A stretch of DNA of 32,850 nt from a virus, in the IMG/VR virus record IMGVR_UViG_3300032092_000137, positions 1 to 32,850 of that record; one strand, given 5' to 3'. The notes under the pieces were generated by a model, which was not told where the DNA came from, did not search any database, and worked only from the letters and a program-made list of their open reading frames with translations. Each line of letters starts with the position of its first letter. Within the stretch, counting starts at the first letter, position 1. Below, in pieces: positions 7,169 through 14,930 of the stretch. Position numbers and translations under genes: made by a program.

Positions 7169-7555
7169 TTATCCTCCTGTGCTGTCTAAGTATTCTTGAA
7201 ACTTTGGAAATAAATCTTTATGCTTTTCGTACTGACCTAATACTACATTACATTGGTGACAAAGTAAACCGCGCACTTTTCCTGTGTTGTGGCTGTGGTC
7301 TACCGCAAGACTACGAATGCCATCACCTCTTGATATGCGTGCAGTTTCTTCTTTCCCACAAAGTTTACACACCCCACCTTGGCTATCAAACATAGCCTGA
7401 TACTCTTCAACAGTAATTCCATACTTAGCCTTAAGTTGATTAGCCTTATGGTTTTTTCTGTACCTTTTACGTGAAGTCTTTTTCTTTTCTGGATTGCGAA
7501 GATAGTACTCGCGCATATACTCTGCGTGTATCTTTTTCTGCTCTTCGTTTCTCAT
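7169..7555 (-). CDS. Recombination endonuclease VII (HNH/His-Me finger nuclease)
   Basis: A 128-residue protein with the endonuclease VII pattern: a basic helical start (KKKTSRKRYRKNHKANQ), the YGITVEEYQAMFDSQGGVC entry, and zinc ligands C63-x2-C66 and C99-x2-C102. Between them lie the catalytic LAVDHSHNTGKVRGLLC (Asp86, His87). T4 endonuclease VII resolves branched DNA before packaging; many phage homologues of about this size exist, some acting as free-standing HNH homing-like nucleases. Start and upstream stop overlap as TAATG, so it is coupled to the FmdB-like gene. Its last codons (GGA GGA TAA) form the ribosome binding site of the next gene. Confidence 0.88.
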   Translation of the reverse strand: MRNEEQKKIHAEYMREYYLRNPEKKKTSRKRYRKNHKANQLKAKYGITVEEYQAMFDSQGGVCKLCGKEETARISRGDGIRSLAVDHSHNTGKVRGLLCHQCNVVLGQYEKHKDLFPKFQEYLDSTGG

Positions 7556-7898: not shown

Positions 7899-8306
7899 TT
7901 AATACCAGTTCCTGCGTTGAGAATGTTTCCACGCTTTGCAAGGTGTTCCGTAGCGGTGCTCGATATAGCGGTAGGCTCTGAGTATCTGTATTGCTGGGTC
8001 CTTGCTTTTCTCATTGAGCATTTGCGCTATACCGAAGGCACTACTTCCTTGCATATTCTTGGCTAAGTGGTCGAATCTGCTTTCCTTAGTGAAGAGTAAG
8101 GTAATACATTTACGCTGAGTCTTATCCCAATTCCACCCCACTTGAGCAAACCTCATAGCCATAGCCTTGTTCTGCTGCTTATCTTCCCACGTTGCTTTAG
8201 TCTTAAGACGTGGCTTTATCTGCACATCTACTGTAACTGTGTGGGTTATTGGTGCAAGGGAGGCAAGTAGAACAAGTCCGATGACCACGATTACTCGTTT
8301 TTTCAT
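7899..8306 (-). CDS. Secreted or membrane-anchored lytic transglycosylase-like protein
   Basis: A 135-residue protein with an N-terminal signal or anchor (MKKRVIVVIGLVLLASLAP, 1-19). A compact SLT/lysozyme-like region follows: LLFTKESRFDHLAKN with a probable catalytic Glu75, GSSAFGIAQML (88-97) and AYRYIEHRYGTPCKAWKH (111-128). The order E-S-x-F, G-x-x-x-G-I-x-Q-M, then the YI..RYGTPC.AW block matches actinobacterial transglycosylase domains. It is far from the endolysin/holin pair and in the leftward block, so it may act early or in virion entry rather than in lysis. It overlaps WhiB by 4 bp (ATGA), implying coupled translation. Confidence 0.78.
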   Translation of the reverse strand: MKKRVIVVIGLVLLASLAPITHTVTVDVQIKPRLKTKATWEDKQQNKAMAMRFAQVGWNWDKTQRKCITLLFTKESRFDHLAKNMQGSSAFGIAQMLNEKSKDPAIQILRAYRYIEHRYGTPCKAWKHSQRRNWY

Positions 8307-8647
8307 ACACTAATTCTAGCAATTATCTTTCTAACGTCACGTCTATGACGCTGCTCGTGTCGCACAGAATTATGTGTGTGCTTAAGGCCAGCCAGTAACG
8401 CCCGTTCACCAGTCAATAGCCCGCCCCAGATTGAGCCCACTCCACCCACGCTTAGAATGTTTTCCTGTTCTAACCCTTGCTGCAAACATTGGGCTTTAAC
8501 TGGGCAGTTGTTGCAGATTTCAATTGCTTCTACACTTCTTAAGACGTGAAGTCTTTGCTCATCTGCCAGCGTTGAGTTTTCGTAGTGCCATAAGTCTGGG
8601 TCTGGGTGCCCGTTGCAGAGCCCCTCTGCGTGCCAGGTGCGGTTCAC
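8303..8647 (-). CDS. WhiB-family iron-sulfur transcription regulator
   Basis: A 114-residue Wbl protein with the four cluster cysteines (Cys11, then CNNCPVKAQC giving Cys45, Cys48 and Cys54) and the GSIWGG turn (71-76), followed by a basic tail (RHEQRHRRDVRK) expected to contact DNA. Wbl proteins hold a [4Fe-4S] cluster, bind host sigma factor region 4 and are characteristic of actinobacteria. The mycobacteriophage TM4 homologue is known to interfere with host WhiB2 and affect superinfection. The phage copy could repress or redirect host promoters, perhaps together with the phage sigma-like factor. It overlaps both neighbours by 4 bp. Confidence 0.93.
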   Translation of the reverse strand: MNRTWHAEGLCNGHPDPDLWHYENSTLADEQRLHVLRSVEAIEICNNCPVKAQCLQQGLEQENILSVGGVGSIWGGLLTGERALLAGLKHTHNSVRHEQRHRRDVRKIIARISV

Positions 8648-9174: not shown

Positions 9175-9190
9175 ATTCTCCTGTCTTAAG
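9175..9190 (-). promoter_or_regulatory. Start-associated sequence before the gene starting at 9171
   Basis: On the coding strand CTTAAGACAGGAGAAT ends 3 bp before the ATG. The GGAGA is the ribosome binding site; the CTTAAGAC extension upstream is conserved far beyond what ribosome binding requires. Confidence 0.75.
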
Positions 9191-9526: not shown

Positions 9527-9693
9527 TTGTATTCTCCTGTCTTAAGACACTCTGTCATTGTTCCCCAGCAGTAGCCTTCGCCCTGCACGTACCAAATATG
9601 GTTGATGAATTGGTACCCTGCCCATAGAAGTAGCAAGGTAAGTGTGATTAGCGAGAAGAATATAAACGCCTCGCCTCGTGGTGTTAGTTTCAT
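9523..9693 (-). CDS. Small single-pass membrane protein ending LKTGEYK
   Basis: A 56-residue protein with one strong membrane helix (AFIFFSLITLTLLLLWAGY, about 9-27) and a short aromatic exposed tail (FINHIWYVQGEGYCWG). It could be an early membrane modulator (superinfection exclusion, or a holin or antiholin accessory), but only topology supports that. The last seven codons coincide with the start-associated motif of the next gene and give L-K-T-G-E-Y-K. It overlaps both neighbours by 4 bp. Confidence 0.68.
   Translation of the reverse strand: MKLTPRGEAFIFFSLITLTLLLLWAGYQFINHIWYVQGEGYCWGTMTECLKTGEYK
9531..9546 (-). promoter_or_regulatory. Start-associated sequence inside the end of the membrane protein gene
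   Basis: CTTAAGACAGGAGAAT on the coding strand serves the ATG at 9526. It lies wholly inside the preceding reading frame, where it encodes L-K-T-G-E and most of the next codon. Confidence 0.75.
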
Positions 9694-10064: not shown

Positions 10065-10220
10065 TTATTCTCCCGTCTTAAGTGGTAATTGTGTGGTAAC
10101 TTTTGCGCCAAGATATACGTTTGTTGGGTCTGACTTCAGTAATTGCTCGGCTGTTTCTTTGTCGTACAGGCCTCTAAACTTACGGCCCCAAGGGTCTACG
10201 CCTCCGATGATGTATAACAT
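10065..10220 (-). CDS. Small protein ending LKTGE (51 aa)
   Basis: The product reads MLYIIGGVDPWGRKFRGLYD then KETAEQLLKSDPTNVYLGAK and ends LPLKTGE. It looks like a compact beta-alpha domain with no cysteines, unlike its neighbours. It has the start-associated motif upstream (10225-10240), and its own last five codons plus stop are the motif for the next gene (10067-10082). Family unknown; the coding call rests on the perfect start signal, packing and sensible composition. Confidence 0.68.
   Translation of the reverse strand: MLYIIGGVDPWGRKFRGLYDKETAEQLLKSDPTNVYLGAKVTTQLPLKTGE
10067..10082 (-). promoter_or_regulatory. Start-associated sequence inside the preceding reading frame
   Basis: CTTAAGACGGGAGAAT on the coding strand precedes the ATG at 10062 and at the same time encodes the terminal L-K-T-G-E of the upstream protein. 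Confidence 0.75.
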
Positions 10221-10224
10221 TTTT

Positions 10225-10240
10225 ATTCTCCTGTCTTAAG
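10225..10240 (-). promoter_or_regulatory. Start-associated sequence before the gene starting at 10220
   Basis: A complete copy, CTTAAGACAGGAGAAT, 4 bp before the ATG at 10220. Here it lies in non-coding sequence, 3 bp beyond the preceding stop, so conservation of the motif does not depend on encoding LKTGE. Confidence 0.75.
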
Positions 10241-10495: not shown

Positions 10496-10539
10496 TTATT
10501 TTCCCCCTGTCGGCGGGCTACCTTGCTCCGCTTCGACGT

Positions 10540-10587
10540 GCCCCGCTAGTGTCTCGCACACTTCGCCCTCTGTCAAGGGTGCGGGGC
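10540..10587 (-). ncRNA. Three-helix tRNA-like RNA element, copy 1
   Basis: On the coding strand GCCCCGC closes with GCGGGGC (7 bp). Inside are CCCT-TGACAG-AGGG, then AGTG-TGCGAGA-CACT, then one unpaired A before the closing strand. The second hairpin has the shape of a tRNA T-arm with a 7-nt loop. The element lies 21 nt after the suspected frameshifted gene and 44 nt before the next ATG. It is preceded by GACA, as are copies 3 and 4. A following hairpin (10513-10531) precedes the ribosome site. Confidence 0.7.
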
Positions 10588-10608
10588 TGTCTATCTCTAG
10601 ACTTTTTT

Positions 10609-10730
10609 CTATGCCTTAAGACTTAACTTCTTAAGTAGCGCGTCAATCTTGGCCTGCCTCCCGTCTCCCCATTTCCGTCGTTTCTTAGTGCCGACTTAAT
10701 GAGTAAAATTTCTTGTTCTGTAAGTTTCAT
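10609..10730 (-). pseudogene. Small gene with probable -1 frameshift
   Basis: From the ATG (10730, overlapping the upstream stop as TAATG) the frame reads MKLTEQEILLIKSALRND and stops at 10623 after 35 residues, ending with GNGETGGRPRLTRYLRS. After the CTAAGAAAC region the -1 frame reads KKRRKWGDGRQAKIDALLKK with an ending LSLKA and stop at 10609, a far more natural continuation for a small helical phage protein. A one-base insertion, a sequencing error or programmed slippage would each explain it. The intact product would be about 40 residues, helical and basic. No function is recognised. Confidence 0.5.
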
Positions 10731-11062
10731 TACTTGCCCCATTCCATTACTTGGCGGGCGATTACATCGAAAGGCAAAGACCCTTGGCCCTGCAATAGTT
10801 GAGCGATTAGGTCGCGGGCTGTGGGGCTTATGTGCTCGGCTACTAGGTCGCAGACTTGCTCGGTTAAGTGCTCGTAATTGCTCCGCACTTGGTCGCTCAA
10901 CTGTGAGACTGTCGCGCCCTCTGCTTCCTGTCTTAAGTCGGAATACATCCCGAAATCGTTCTCGGCCACGAGTAAAAAATCCTCCGCGAATTGCTCGGCT
11001 TGGATGATTCTCTTCACGTCATCGCTTAGCGTGTCCGCTTGAACTTGTGCCATTGATTGCAT
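10730..11062 (-). CDS. Helical acidic protein of unknown function (110 aa)
   Basis: The product, MQSMAQVQADTLSDDVKRII then QAEQFAEDFLLVAENDFG, is almost entirely helical and acidic, with later segments VSQLSDQVRSNYEHLTEQV and ARDLIAQLLQGQG. It has a single cysteine and no zinc or catalytic motif. The ribosome site is a motif variant (TTTAGACAGGAGAAAA) ending near the ATG; copy 2 of the three-way RNA element stands 41 nt upstream. The codons for SDLRQEA contain an internal CTTAAGACAGGA without a start. Family unknown. Confidence 0.66.
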   Translation of the reverse strand: MQSMAQVQADTLSDDVKRIIQAEQFAEDFLLVAENDFGMYSDLRQEAEGATVSQLSDQVRSNYEHLTEQVCDLVAEHISPTARDLIAQLLQGQGSLPFDVIARQVMEWGK

Positions 11063-11103
11063 TTATTTTTTCTCCTGTCTAAATCGGGCGGGTTTGCCCT
11101 TGT

Positions 11104-11148
11104 GCCTTGCTAGGTCGTGAACCTGTGCCGACTATATCGGGGCAAGGC
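11104..11148 (-). ncRNA. Three-helix tRNA-like RNA element, copy 2
   Basis: GCCTTGC closes with GCAAGGC, while copies 1, 3 and 4 use C/G-only stems, so pairing is conserved although sequence is not. Inside are CCGA-TATAG-TCGG and AGG-TTCACGA-CCT, then the unpaired A. It starts 8 nt after the stop of the 47-residue zinc protein and ends 41 nt before the next ATG. A small GGGC/GCCC hairpin follows (11086-11099). Confidence 0.72.
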
Positions 11149-11156
11149 GGGCCTGT

Positions 11157-11300
11157 CTAGGCCTGTGCTGCTGCTTGGCGGTGTAAATAATTGGCGCAGT
11201 TGTAGCAATAGGTCTCAGTAGGTACGCCTAGGCAGAAAGCGTCTACCCCGCTGTAAACCAACTCGGTTGAATTGCACCCGTCTATTTTGCATTCTTTCAT
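11157..11300 (-). CDS. Small cysteine-rich zinc protein (47 aa)
   Basis: The product starts MKECKIDGCNSTELVYSGVD and continues with a CYNC pair within TETYCYNCANYLHRQAAAQ. With Cys4 and Cys9 this makes a four-ligand site (C-x4-C...C-x2-C). Its start has a full CTTAAGACAGGAGA (11307-11320), which lies downstream of RNA copy 3 and of a 7-bp hairpin. The stop TAG is followed after 8 nt by RNA copy 2. Unknown function. Confidence 0.68.
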   Translation of the reverse strand: MKECKIDGCNSTELVYSGVDAFCLGVPTETYCYNCANYLHRQAAAQA

Positions 11301-11306
11301 TTTCTT

Positions 11307-11320
11307 TCTCCTGTCTTAAG
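11307..11320 (-). promoter_or_regulatory. Start-associated sequence before the gene starting at 11300
   Basis: CTTAAGACAGGAGA on the coding strand, 6 bp before the ATG. It follows RNA copy 3 and its 7-bp downstream hairpin, so RNA element, hairpin and start motif occur in series here. Confidence 0.75.
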
Positions 11321-11350
11321 TCATAAGGCGAGAACTTCCCGCCTTACCGC

Positions 11351-11395
11351 GCCCCCGCTAGGTCTTGAACCTGCGCCCGCTTTAGGTGCGGGGGC
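11351..11395 (-). ncRNA. Three-helix tRNA-like RNA element, copy 3
   Basis: GCCCCCGC closes with GCGGGGGC (8 bp). The T-arm-like hairpin is AGG-TTCAAGA-CCT, which fits the tRNA T-loop consensus TTCRANN closed by G-C. The middle hairpin is weak in this copy, since only CC/GG can pair unless the closing stem opens. It starts 7 nt after the preceding stop and ends 50 nt before the next start. The hairpin TAAGGCG/CGCCTTA follows at 11324-11346. Confidence 0.68.
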
Positions 11396-11402
11396 TGTCT
11401 TG

Positions 11403-11597
11403 CTATCCTCTAACTTTCTCCCCGCTTGGCAGGTGGATAGTGTAAGGGGTGTCCACGTCTAGGGTCTTTATCTCCTCAATGTAGGCGCGGTGGAATTCTG
11501 CAAACCGCATAAACTGTGAGAAACTTTCAAACTCCATCACCTTATGGTATCCGTCACCCTCGCGCTCGTCACGCTTTACAATGTAGAACTTTAGCAT
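11403..11597 (-). CDS. Small alpha/beta protein of unknown function (64 aa)
   Basis: The product, MLKFYIVKRDEREGDGYHK then VMEFESFSQFMRFAEFHRAY, has a first strand, an aromatic helix and a C-terminal strand pair ending TPYTIHLPSGEKVRG. No cysteines or catalytic motifs are seen. The start has a variant start-associated motif (CTTAATGACGGGAGAAT, with one extra base in the left part), preceded by RNA copy 4 at 47 nt. Its own stop is followed after 7 nt by RNA copy 3. Family unknown. Confidence 0.66.
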   Translation of the reverse strand: MLKFYIVKRDEREGDGYHKVMEFESFSQFMRFAEFHRAYIEEIKTLDVDTPYTIHLPSGEKVRG

Positions 11598-11644
11598 TTT
11601 TTATTCTCCCGTCATTAAGACTCGGCCTAGTTGCCTCGTCTAGT

Positions 11645-11691
11645 GCCCCCGTCAGGTCTTGCACCTGTCGCCCTCTGTGAGGGGCGGGGGC
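11645..11691 (-). ncRNA. Three-helix tRNA-like RNA element, copy 4
   Basis: GCCCCCG closes with CGGGGGC (7 bp). Inside are CCCT-CACAG-AGGG and CAGG-TGCAAGA-CCTG, then the unpaired A. This is the best-paired copy (7+4+4 bp in 47 nt). It begins 8 nt after the SprT-like stop and ends 47 nt before the next start. The downstream hairpin GACGAGGC/GCCGAGTC (11619-11640) has tandem G-A mismatches. Confidence 0.74.
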
Positions 11692-11699
11692 TGTCCTTT

Positions 11700-12326
11700 C
11701 TAGTCTCTGGCCTCGAAATCGTGGAAGCAATTCTGGCACCTTGGGGCGCACATTTCAAGCACCTTTTTACTTAGGCGAATCTTCCCGCCACATCCACACT
11801 CGGCCACGAGATTGTTCTTGTCGCGCCCTTTCTTGCCTGCTCCCTGCTCGGTGTCGGCTGTGAGGGCTAGGCCTGCCTCAATAAGTGCTAGGGCCTCGCT
11901 CCATCGCTCCGCGCACTCGTCGCTCACCTCGGTGTTGCTCCACCCGATACGCTTGGCCTGTGTGATTGTGAGGCCTAGGGCCTCGGCTGTGGCCTTGAAC
12001 TTCTTGTTATGGTACCCGTCACCCGATACGCCTTGAATCCCTGCCTGTAGGTCTAGGCTGTGCGCTGTCTCGTGTAGAAGTGTGCCAAGGATAGCGCGGG
12101 CCCCGCGTGTGAAGTATTCTGCCGAGACCATAATCTCGTGAAATGAATCCTCGCCAGATACCCAAGGGCGGGCGTGTGTGAAATGTCCCATCGTGTTGCC
12201 TGTCTTACGGGTGACGAGGATTGTTGCGCGGGGTGCGCCTGTCTTCTCTTGAATCAAGGCGTGAGCACTTTCTAGGGCCTCGGTAATGATTGAGAGGTTC
12301 TCGGTCTTCTTGGTTGTTGTTTGCAT
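11700..12326 (-). CDS. SprT-like zinc metallopeptidase
   Basis: A 208-residue protein with HETAH (85-89) in LLHETAHSLDLQAGI, the HExxH zinc site of SprT/Spartan-like peptidases, and GYHNKKFKATAEALGL (about 104-119), which carries the third His and the family's NxxF block. The C-terminal zinc ribbon (CGC near 177-179 and CAPRCQNC at 193-200) is also typical. Spartan-type enzymes degrade DNA-crosslinked proteins; phage copies may clear host proteins from DNA, but that role is inferred. ATG 12326 is chosen because AGACAGGAGA stands upstream and the longer frame's GTG (12380) overlaps the promoter -10 box. First gene of the leftward block. Confidence 0.86.
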   Translation of the reverse strand: MQTTTKKTENLSIITEALESAHALIQEKTGAPRATILVTRKTGNTMGHFTHARPWVSGEDSFHEIMVSAEYFTRGARAILGTLLHETAHSLDLQAGIQGVSGDGYHNKKFKATAEALGLTITQAKRIGWSNTEVSDECAERWSEALALIEAGLALTADTEQGAGKKGRDKNNLVAECGCGGKIRLSKKVLEMCAPRCQNCFHDFEARD

Positions 12327-12916: not shown

Positions 12917-12971
12917 AAAGATTAAATATAATCTTTAACGGAGTTGCCTCCGTTTGCTCTACGGCAACTCC
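12917..12971 (+). promoter_or_regulatory. Two successive hairpins before the terminase gene
   Basis: AAAGATT/AATCTTT (12917-12923 with 12930-12936) is followed by GGAGTTGCC/GGCAACTCC (12940-12948 with 12963-12971), a perfect 9-bp stem with a 14-nt loop. Beyond it an AT-rich run (12972-13010) resembles the one near 1450. They would form a structured late leader if transcription starts upstream. Confidence 0.5.
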
Positions 12972-13061: not shown

Positions 13062-14930
13062 ATGGGACGCAAGCCAGGAATCCAGAATATACCGAAGAAG
13101 GAAGCCCAGGAGAAGGTACTCATCCAACTCAGCCAGGGGGCAACTATTATCTCCGCTATGGCTGGGGTGGGCCGAAATGACGTTACCTTCCGACAGTGGG
13201 TGATGGCAGACCCTGAGTTCAAGGAGCGAGCCGAGAAAGCCCGCCTTGAAGGCAAAGGCATCAAAGCAGACCTTGCCGATTTAAAGGATATTTCCTTCCC
13301 CGACTTCTGTGAGCAGTTCTTAGACTCTAAGTTGTTCCCCCACCAGTTGAACTGGATGGATATGATAGAGGGTAGGGCCCCTAGGTGGTTACCACCAGGT
13401 ATGACCTATGAACCAGGCGAGGCTGACCGAGTACTTATCAACGTACCCCCAGAGCACGCCAAGTCCACCACTATCACCACCAACTACGTTTTGTACAAAA
13501 TCGTCACCAACCCAAATCACCGAGTCATTATTGTCTCCAAGACCCAGGGTATGGCACGTAAGTTTCTTGGGGCAATCAAGACCCGACTTTCACACCCTGC
13601 CTACACCAAACTGCAAGTGGCCTTCGGCCCTAACGGCGGTTACAAGGCAGATGCAACCCAGTGGTCAGCCGATATGATTTACTTAGGTACAGGCCGCGAC
13701 TCTGGCGAGAAGGACCCTACGGTCCAAGCCCTAGGTATGGGTTCTCAGATTTACGGTGCACGTGCCGACTTGATTATTGTGGACGACGCTGTAATGGGTG
13801 CTAACGCTCACGAGTGGGAAAAGCAACTTGAGTGGCTTCAGAAAGAAGTTATCACTCGTCTTGGCAGACACGGTAAGTTAATTATTGTTGGAACCAGAGT
13901 GTCATCAATTGACCTCTACAAGATGCTGAGGGACCCTGGGCAGTGGTCGGGTGGGGTAAGCCCCTTCACCTACTGCGCTATGCCAGCAGTCTTGGAATTT
14001 GACGAAGACCCGCTTAACTGGAAAACACTCTGGCCTGAAACAGACCAGCAAGAAAATGCAAAGGACGATGCATTACCAAATGGAAATTTTCCCAAGTGGG
14101 ACGGACCTTCTCTCTTTAAGCGTCGCTCTCAGGTCAGCCCCTCAGTATGGGCTATGGTCTACCAACAAGAAGACGTACAAGAAGACTCCATCTTCTCACC
14201 AACCTGCGTTGCAGGAAGCGTCAACGGAATGCGTAAGCGCGGACCTCTCAAAGCGGGGGTTGTAGGCCATCCGAAAAATACTGACAACGCTTACACGGTT
14301 ATTGGTTTTGACCCTGCTATGTCAGGTGCTTCTGCTTTTGTGGCTGTTTCGTACAATCGAACAGACGGAAGAATTTACGTTCTAGACTGTATCAATATGA
14401 CAGAGCCTACGCCAGCCAAGATTCAAGGCGTCATTGAAGAGTGGGTCGAGAAGTACCGCCCTCAGGAGTTCCGCGTAGAAATCAACGCACACCAGAAGGC
14501 ATACTCTCTGGATGATAACTTAAGAAACTTTTTAGCCGCATATGGCTGCCAGTTGAATTCACACTTCACTGGCAAGAATAAGTGGGACACATCTTTTGGT
14601 GTGGCATCAATGGCAAGCCTCTTTGGCTCTGTCAGAGAAGGGCGCTTTCAAGATAACAACTTGATTGAGTTGCCAAGCAATGAAGGCTCAGAGGGAATCA
14701 AGACCCTTATCCAGGAACTTATTACCTGGAAGCCAGATACCAAGAACCCTACCGACTGCGTAATGGCACTCTGGTTTGCAATTATTCGCATACGCGAGTT
14801 GATGCAACAGAGTACAAGAGTTGGACAGTACCAATCAAACCGTTGGGCAACAAGAGCACAAATGTCCCAGCGTGGCTCAATTAATTTAGATGAAGAGTTC
14901 GCCTCACAATGGGCGGAACAATACGGTTAG
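13062..14930 (+). CDS. terL: Terminase large subunit with N-terminal HTH-like region
   Basis: A 622-residue packaging motor and nuclease. Walker A-like NVPPEHAKST is at 127-136, Walker B LIIVDD at 237-242, and the nuclease domain opens with TVIGFDPAMSGAS (metal-binding Asp near 417). Residues 1-70 (GATIISAMAGVGRNDVTFRQ and onward) look like a small-terminase-type HTH fused in front, and no separate small terminase gene is seen. The motor packages DNA through the portal encoded immediately downstream. GGAAG precedes the ATG. As the first gene of the virion operon it defines the late region and follows the 735-bp control region. Confidence 0.92.
   Translation: MGRKPGIQNIPKKEAQEKVLIQLSQGATIISAMAGVGRNDVTFRQWVMADPEFKERAEKARLEGKGIKADLADLKDISFPDFCEQFLDSKLFPHQLNWMDMIEGRAPRWLPPGMTYEPGEADRVLINVPPEHAKSTTITTNYVLYKIVTNPNHRVIIVSKTQGMARKFLGAIKTRLSHPAYTKLQVAFGPNGGYKADATQWSADMIYLGTGRDSGEKDPTVQALGMGSQIYGARADLIIVDDAVMGANAHEWEKQLEWLQKEVITRLGRHGKLIIVGTRVSSIDLYKMLRDPGQWSGGVSPFTYCAMPAVLEFDEDPLNWKTLWPETDQQENAKDDALPNGNFPKWDGPSLFKRRSQVSPSVWAMVYQQEDVQEDSIFSPTCVAGSVNGMRKRGPLKAGVVGHPKNTDNAYTVIGFDPAMSGASAFVAVSYNRTDGRIYVLDCINMTEPTPAKIQGVIEEWVEKYRPQEFRVEINAHQKAYSLDDNLRNFLAAYGCQLNSHFTGKNKWDTSFGVASMASLFGSVREGRFQDNNLIELPSNEGSEGIKTLIQELITWKPDTKNPTDCVMALWFAIIRIRELMQQSTRVGQYQSNRWATRAQMSQRGSINLDEEFASQWAEQYG

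Follow-up and report, generated by a model that had tools for sequence, protein, structure and literature searches.

The early operon of the viral genome analysed here carries, between its genes, four copies of a structured RNA family that is missing from Rfam and is widespread in this group of freshwater phages. Comparison among related sequences establishes the fold of these elements, the covariation of their helices, a ruler-like 3' strand, their placement between genes and their exchange with hammerhead ribozymes, as well as, on fewer changes, an elbow-like pair between two of their loops. We give about even weight to the reading that the elements are tRNA mimics lacking an anticodon arm, which would punctuate the polycistronic early mRNA and be cut at the 5' edge of their closing stem P1, with host RNase P as the most likely enzyme. 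We prefer this enzyme, with a cut 5' of P1, because what is conserved in the element is what RNase P reads. The window, as the term is used below, is the whole stretch of DNA that was analysed (32,850 nucleotides; positions 1 to 32,850 of IMG/VR record IMGVR_UViG_3300032092_000137).

Elements in the window

A sequence-only reading of the window had placed four three-helix elements on the coding (minus) strand, and all of them were found at the positions given in Table 1 with the architecture that it had claimed: a closing stem P1 of 7–8 bp, a middle hairpin P2, a hairpin P3, a single A and the return strand of P1, the P3 loop being 7 nt of the form T(T/G)C(A/G)(A/C)GA closed by G-C. That reading had also held that base changes keep the helices paired, except for the middle stem of copy 3. 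Single-sequence folding gave a three-way junction in copies 1, 2 and 4 and a weaker P2 in copy 3. The folding z-scores against dinucleotide shuffles were -4.0, -2.6, -1.4 and -3.1 for copies 1, 2, 3 and 4, respectively, and a covariance model (R1) built from 21 variants recovered the window copies at E-values of 1e-13 to 2e-8. As a set, the four elements are far beyond chance.

The genes between which the elements sit belong to an early operon directed away from the large terminase gene. Downstream of the elements, on the same strand, are genes for a WhiB-like transcription factor (8303–8647, minus strand) and for recombination endonuclease VII (7169–7555, minus strand). Early and late genes diverge, and an inverted repeat of nine bp, GGAGTTGCC/GGCAACTCC, lies in the non-coding DNA that separates them, at 12940–12971.

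Table 1. Elements, flanking hairpins, spacers and anchor genes in the window
Feature	Position	Strand	Description
Spacer downstream of copy 1	10496..10539	-	Hairpin P4 and Shine-Dalgarno
Element copy 1	10540..10587	-	P1 GCCCCGC/GCGGGGC; P2 CCCT/AGGG; P3 AGTG/CACT; loop TGCGAGA; 68.6 bits (model R1)
Hairpin P0 upstream of copy 1	10589..10602	-	GTCTA-GAGA-TAGAC; one unpaired base, then P1
Spacer downstream of copy 2	11063..11103	-	Hairpin P4 and Shine-Dalgarno
Element copy 2	11104..11148	-	P1 GCCTTGC/GCAAGGC; P2 CCGA/TCGG; P3 AGG/CCT; loop TTCACGA; 49.7 bits (model R1)
Hairpin P0 upstream of copy 2	11150..11163	-	GGCCT-AGAC-AGGCC; stop codon of upstream ORF inside
Spacer downstream of copy 3	11301..11350	-	Purine-C, hairpin P4 (TAAGGCG..CGCCTTA), CTTAAGACAGGAGAA; runs to ATG at 11300
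Element copy 3	11351..11395	-	P1 of 8 bp, GCCCCCGC/GCGGGGGC; short P2; P3 AGG/CCT; loop TTCAAGA; 68.3 bits (model R1)
Spacer downstream of copy 4	11598..11644	-	Purine-C, hairpin P4, extended Shine-Dalgarno; runs to ATG at 11597
Element copy 4	11645..11691	-	P1 GCCCCCG/CGGGGGC; P2 CCCT/AGGG; P3 CAGG/CCTG; loop TGCAAGA; after SprT-like gene; 72.0 bits (model R1)
SprT-like gene	11700..12323	-	207 aa from ATG; Pfam PF10263, E 3.9e-6; 56 relatives; anchor for slot comparison
Large terminase	13062..14930	+	Pfam PF17289; transcribed divergently; second anchor

Relatives and placement

Related loci were collected through the SprT-like protein (56 viral loci) and through the terminase (80 loci); some of these loci share a contig or come from near-identical ones. 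When homologous copies between the genes of related phages were looked for with R1, they were found in many: 89 matches in the SprT set (window copies included), 86 in the terminase set and 32 in a third set (31 of them convincing), more than 200 in total, of which the weakest few are doubtful. Among whole records, elements were found in 19 of 20, with one to four per phage in these. Essentially all of the matches lie on the coding strand of the early genes (in the terminase-oriented loci, all on the minus strand), and the element is therefore taken to act as an RNA of that strand; folding is similar on the plus strand, yet a function there was rejected on the same distribution.

Across 131 distinct contexts, no element overlaps the upstream ORF, and the median spacing is 9 nt between the stop codon and P1 and 47 nt between P1 and the start codon that follows. 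The regular placement described in the sequence-only reading holds for copies 2 to 4, which lie 7–8 nt past a stop codon and 41–50 nt ahead of an ATG, but not for the 21 nt given for copy 1, since the TAG in question ends no window ORF of at least 20 aa. The nearest ORF upstream of copy 1 (39 aa; 10623–10742, minus strand) stops 35 nt before the element.

The terminase is about 45% identical to those of Streptomyces phages and other actinobacterial phages, and the WhiB-like gene fits actinobacterial hosts. Among named phages, DNA matches to the region were seen in two unannotated records only (OX376640 and OX376641), the former of which (locus L147) carries three elements. The sole pattern match in the genome collection, on a Nitrospiraceae contig, amounts to 14 bits over 16 positions, and was rejected as a bacterial copy because it is a chance match.

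Covariation of the helices

Covariation, which had been proposed as the check on the fold, is strong in all three helices, in the alignments A3, A4 and A5 as well as in a mutual-information screen. In A5 (64 distinct sequences), standard pairs fill 93.3% of the pair cells against 70.4% expected under shuffling, and changes on both sides of a pair number 244 cells against 67.6 expected, with the two loop contacts described below counted in; the double-sided changes in A4 number 130 against 40 in shuffles. None of the 500 shuffles reached the observed value in either alignment and slid controls fell far below it, although A4 and A5 were fitted to the structure of the model, so that their counts lean towards that structure. 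The seed alignment A3, which was made with MAFFT and is free of structure, agrees with them (42 versus 12). When all column pairs were ranked in the unsupervised mutual-information screen, the top eight ranks were pairs of the three helices.

Flanking hairpins and spacers

Folding of the whole intercistronic regions gave a hairpin, P4, downstream of all four copies, and another, P0, upstream of copies 1 and 2. P0 was recognized in 46 of 118 contexts as against about six in shuffles, with arms that differ in sequence and yet are complementary (the P0 of copy 2 reads GGGCT-AGAC-AGCCC in relatives), and in these contexts the gap from its end to P1 is 0–2 nt, mostly one.

An extended ribosome-binding site, TTAAGACAGGAGAA, recurs before the early genes (9176–9189, 9532–9545, 10068–10081, 10226–10239, 11070–11083 and 11306–11319, minus strand, and others), with 23 matches at up to three mismatches against 3.8 expected; this repeat resembles the start-associated sequences of some mycobacteriophages. 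Some related loci (L029, L030, L032, L033, L036, L058 and L091) have an extra conserved stretch of several hairpins (GTGTGAT..ATCACAC, CCCGTAAATGATAGACATTCGCGGG and GTTGTA..TACAAC) immediately after the element and ahead of the ribosome-binding site.

Likeness to tRNA

Counted from the P3 loop to where P1 ends, the 3' strand is 12 nt long in 75 of the 107 variants and 11 nt long in 30. The lengths of P1 and P3 trade off against each other (7+4, 8+3 and 7+5), so that their sum varies less than in permutations (p = 0.0008), and the divergent forms fold as 5+7 bp and 7+5 bp, both without a linker, the 7+5 arrangement being that of tRNA. RNase P has been suggested to measure its substrates by a 12-bp acceptor plus T stem; a minimal acceptor-stem/T-arm hairpin is an efficient substrate, and the RCCA end is also read by the bacterial enzyme (PMC11143913).

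In the elbow of tRNA, position 3 of the T-loop (base 56) pairs with base 19 of the D-loop, and RNase P RNA stacks on the elbow (PMC4810234). At the corresponding place in the elements, the third base of the P3 loop and the last base of the P2 loop form a G-C pair in 54 and an A-U pair in two of the 56 distinct A5 sequences that have letters there, none being unpaired; in A4, 48 are GC. The A-U form occurs in loci L100 and L063 and, as judged by eye, at L082:8487 in a copy-2 background. The sixth base of the P3 loop and the base after P2 are C-G, U-A or U-G. Both loop contacts vary little, ranking 55th (third base) and 48th (sixth base) of 1147 column pairs in the mutual-information screen, and they are consistent with Watson-Crick or wobble pairing on the strength of a handful of changes.

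P1 usually starts with G, and it is directly followed by purine-C in 105 of the 107 variants, the base after that being C in none of the 107. Across the variants, the P3 loop has C at position 3 (U in three), A or G at position 4, often C rather than A at position 5 (TTCACGA), and sometimes A or C at position 1. The suggestion that the elements mimic tRNA thus gains from the ruler of 11–12 nt, the covarying elbow pair resembling 56–19 and the purine-C after the stem, but it loses where P3 loops leave the T-loop pattern at position 5 (C for A). To judge from its sequence, the element keeps most of the tRNA parts that are read by RNase P, with neither an anticodon arm nor CCA. The only tRNA in the scanned loci, a tRNA-Arg (anticodon ACG; L007:7006–7077, minus strand), has no encoded CCA, ends in purine-C-U and lies directly upstream of a Shine-Dalgarno sequence and ATG.

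A tRNA-like elbow might instead recruit some other tRNA-binding factor, such as RNase Z, a ribosomal site or a tRNA-modifying enzyme, to control how the following gene is translated or processed. The variants avoid C as the third base after P1, and for RNase Z a CC motif acts as an anti-determinant. We consider such recruitment very unlikely, although many factors read the elbow (PMC4810234): RNase Z leaves the conserved C right after the purine unexplained, aminoacylation or EF-Tu binding is improbable because no CCA end is encoded, and the exchange with hammerheads described below is explained less simply.

The GC-rich stable folds, the flanking hairpins P0 and P4 and the tight distance from the stop codon would also suit a block that is never cut, serving as an exonuclease shield for the upstream 3' end or the downstream 5' end, or as an insulator at the edge of the terminating ribosome. 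This passive role seems unlikely to us, because mere stability needs neither a ruler of 11–12 nt nor a conserved loop, a covarying loop-loop pair or purine-C.

Comparison with known RNA families

Rfam gave no match in the window at the gathering score, none at the elements at E-values up to 5, and none at their counterparts in those related loci that were scanned. The sequence-only reading, which had looked for hammerhead and purine-type cores, had matched the elements to no known riboswitch or ribozyme class. They are not true tRNA genes; ARAGORN found none in the window, no Rfam tRNA match was obtained, and there is no anticodon arm. The tRNA-like domain of tmRNA shares with the elements an acceptor and T arm, a D-like loop contact and the lack of an anticodon arm; unlike it, the elements have no CCA and no tag reading frame, and lie in cis between genes.

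A hammerhead in the window was rejected, since the CUGANGA and GAAA core with a UH cleavage site is absent from the element variants and Rfam gave none there; hammerheads were found only in relatives. The type II hammerhead (Rfam RF02276) resembles the elements in operon, kind of slot and strand and in having two hairpins inside an outer stem, whereas the elements have neither its CUGANGA nor its GAAA core and are unrelated to it in sequence and junction. The core blocks of permuted hammerheads, circular or non-circular (PMC10085705), are likewise absent. Twister-sister, in its three-way form, has in common with the elements a three-way junction and a UGCAAG T-loop hairpin (SL4-like in the elements) whose G contacts the junction, but its conserved internal loop L1 with the C-A cleavage step and its outer stem are absent from the elements, in which P1 is preceded by ACM and followed by RCD, and no Rfam match to it was seen at E-values up to 5. 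In a permuted twister-sister, the L1 motifs would have to sit in the P2 hairpin, which varies freely.

Hammerhead ribozymes in the same slot

Of the 53 loci in which the 3' end of the SprT-like gene is readable, 51 have an element-like RNA or a hammerhead in the slot after it: an element or close variant (19 loci), a divergent element (18) or a type II hammerhead (14); two have neither. This tally was made by eye and counts near-identical contigs separately, and three of the 18 divergent elements are cut by the contig end. The divergent element, GCCCGCCAAGGTGG...TGCAAAT...CGGGC, is missed by R1; after the SprT-like gene of loci L037–L054, it has a P1 of 5 bp and a P3 of 7 bp (sum 12) with the loop TGCAAAT. 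Twenty-two distinct hammerheads lie 0–6 nt past a stop codon and 21–39 nt ahead of a start, and elements are also present in all 15 of the hammerhead-bearing loci. Hammerheads occur before the SprT-like gene too, where Rfam accepts eight of them; those after it keep the CGAAAC and CUGANGA core, and one that was tested scored 20.7 bits, which is under the Rfam threshold. The loci with type II hammerheads before or after the SprT-like gene are L012–L016, L020–L024, L026, L027, L034, L035 and L042, and many of the hammerheads after it have an extended stem III.

Because hammerheads fill the same kind of slot in relatives, processing of the message at the element is suggested; that is, the long phage message may be cut between cistrons at the element sites. 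Alternatively, the element might itself be a self-cleaving ribozyme of a new class, with a tRNA-like elbow as its scaffold, that is swapped freely with hammerheads between phage genes. The three-way junction and the contacts between the P2 and P3 loops would then be the active site, and the cut would fall in the linker between P2 and P3 or beside P1. Twister-sister, pistol and hatchet were discovered through site sharing of this kind with known ribozymes such as hammerheads (PMC10085705), the order of outer stem, hairpin, linker, hairpin and outer stem parallels the type II hammerhead, and the P3 loop UGCAAG, with its G pairing to a junction base, resembles SL4 of twister-sister (PMC5660989). 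However, few residues outside the helices are invariant (the A before the closing strand, the purine-C and parts of the P3 loop), the two conserved loop contacts tolerate covariation, the 5' flank ACA becomes CCC in one subfamily, and the internal loop that bears the twister-sister cleavage site is absent. As the constant length of P1 plus P3 also suits a ruler better than an active-site cleft, we regard this candidate activity as rather unlikely.

Proposed processing of the early mRNA

If the elements are tRNA mimics cut by RNase P, P1 and P3 would be stacked as a single helix of about 12 bp equivalent to the acceptor plus T arm, the T-loop-like P3 loop would pair through its third base with the P2 loop to form a tRNA-like elbow, and the purine-C after P1 would stand in for bases 73–74. 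The early mRNA of these actinobacteriophage-like phages would be cut by the host enzyme, so that the upstream message would end a few nucleotides past its stop codon and the downstream message would have a stably folded 5' end ahead of hairpin P4 and the ribosome-binding site. We infer both the coaxial stacking of P1 and P3 and a cut in the mRNA at the element; the likeliest position of this cut is immediately 5' of P1, and the likeliest enzyme is host RNase P.

Reported targets of RNase P cleavage include a polycistronic mRNA and the precursor of the phage P1/P7 C4 RNA (PMC11143913). With RNase P substrates such as acceptor/T-arm minihelices, the his operon mRNA, the C4 RNA precursor and the tRNA-like structure of turnip yellow mosaic virus, the elements share an acceptor-like stem plus T-arm with a ruler of about 12 bp; the elbow pair, the purine-C 3' of the stem and the usual G at +1 are also common to the elements and such tRNA-like substrates. 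They differ in having no CCA and no anticodon arm, in being candidate substrates, and in punctuating the space between genes, with one to four copies per phage and often with P0 and P4 on their flanks.

Several points speak against RNase P. The enzyme prefers a single-stranded leader, and the P0 hairpin, which abuts the predicted cut in 46 of the 118 contexts, should hamper it. The full RCC contact appears to be missing, as the third 3' base is never C; many P3 loops, with C at position 5, look unlike a canonical T-loop; the contact at position 6 has no direct counterpart in tRNA; and both of the putative tertiary pairs rest on few changes. The substitution by hammerheads means that cutting is acceptable at the slot, and is not proof that the element is cut.

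In mitochondria, as in these phages, tRNA-shaped folds lie between the ORFs of a polycistronic transcript; the mitochondrial marks, however, are genuine tRNAs, which RNase P and RNase Z cleave, whereas the phage elements are candidate cut sites and minimal mimics, for which no tRNA function is expected. If the elements prove to be self-cleaving and uncut by RNase P, they would be a new ribozyme class. If the preferred reading of RNase P cutting at tRNA mimics is true, they would be a phage counterpart of tRNA punctuation, in which a minimal mimic is repeated between genes and is exchangeable with self-cleaving ribozymes, the same slot holding either a ribozyme or a candidate substrate of a host enzyme. 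Hammerheads in phage operons would then have a natural reason, namely the cutting of the message between cistrons.
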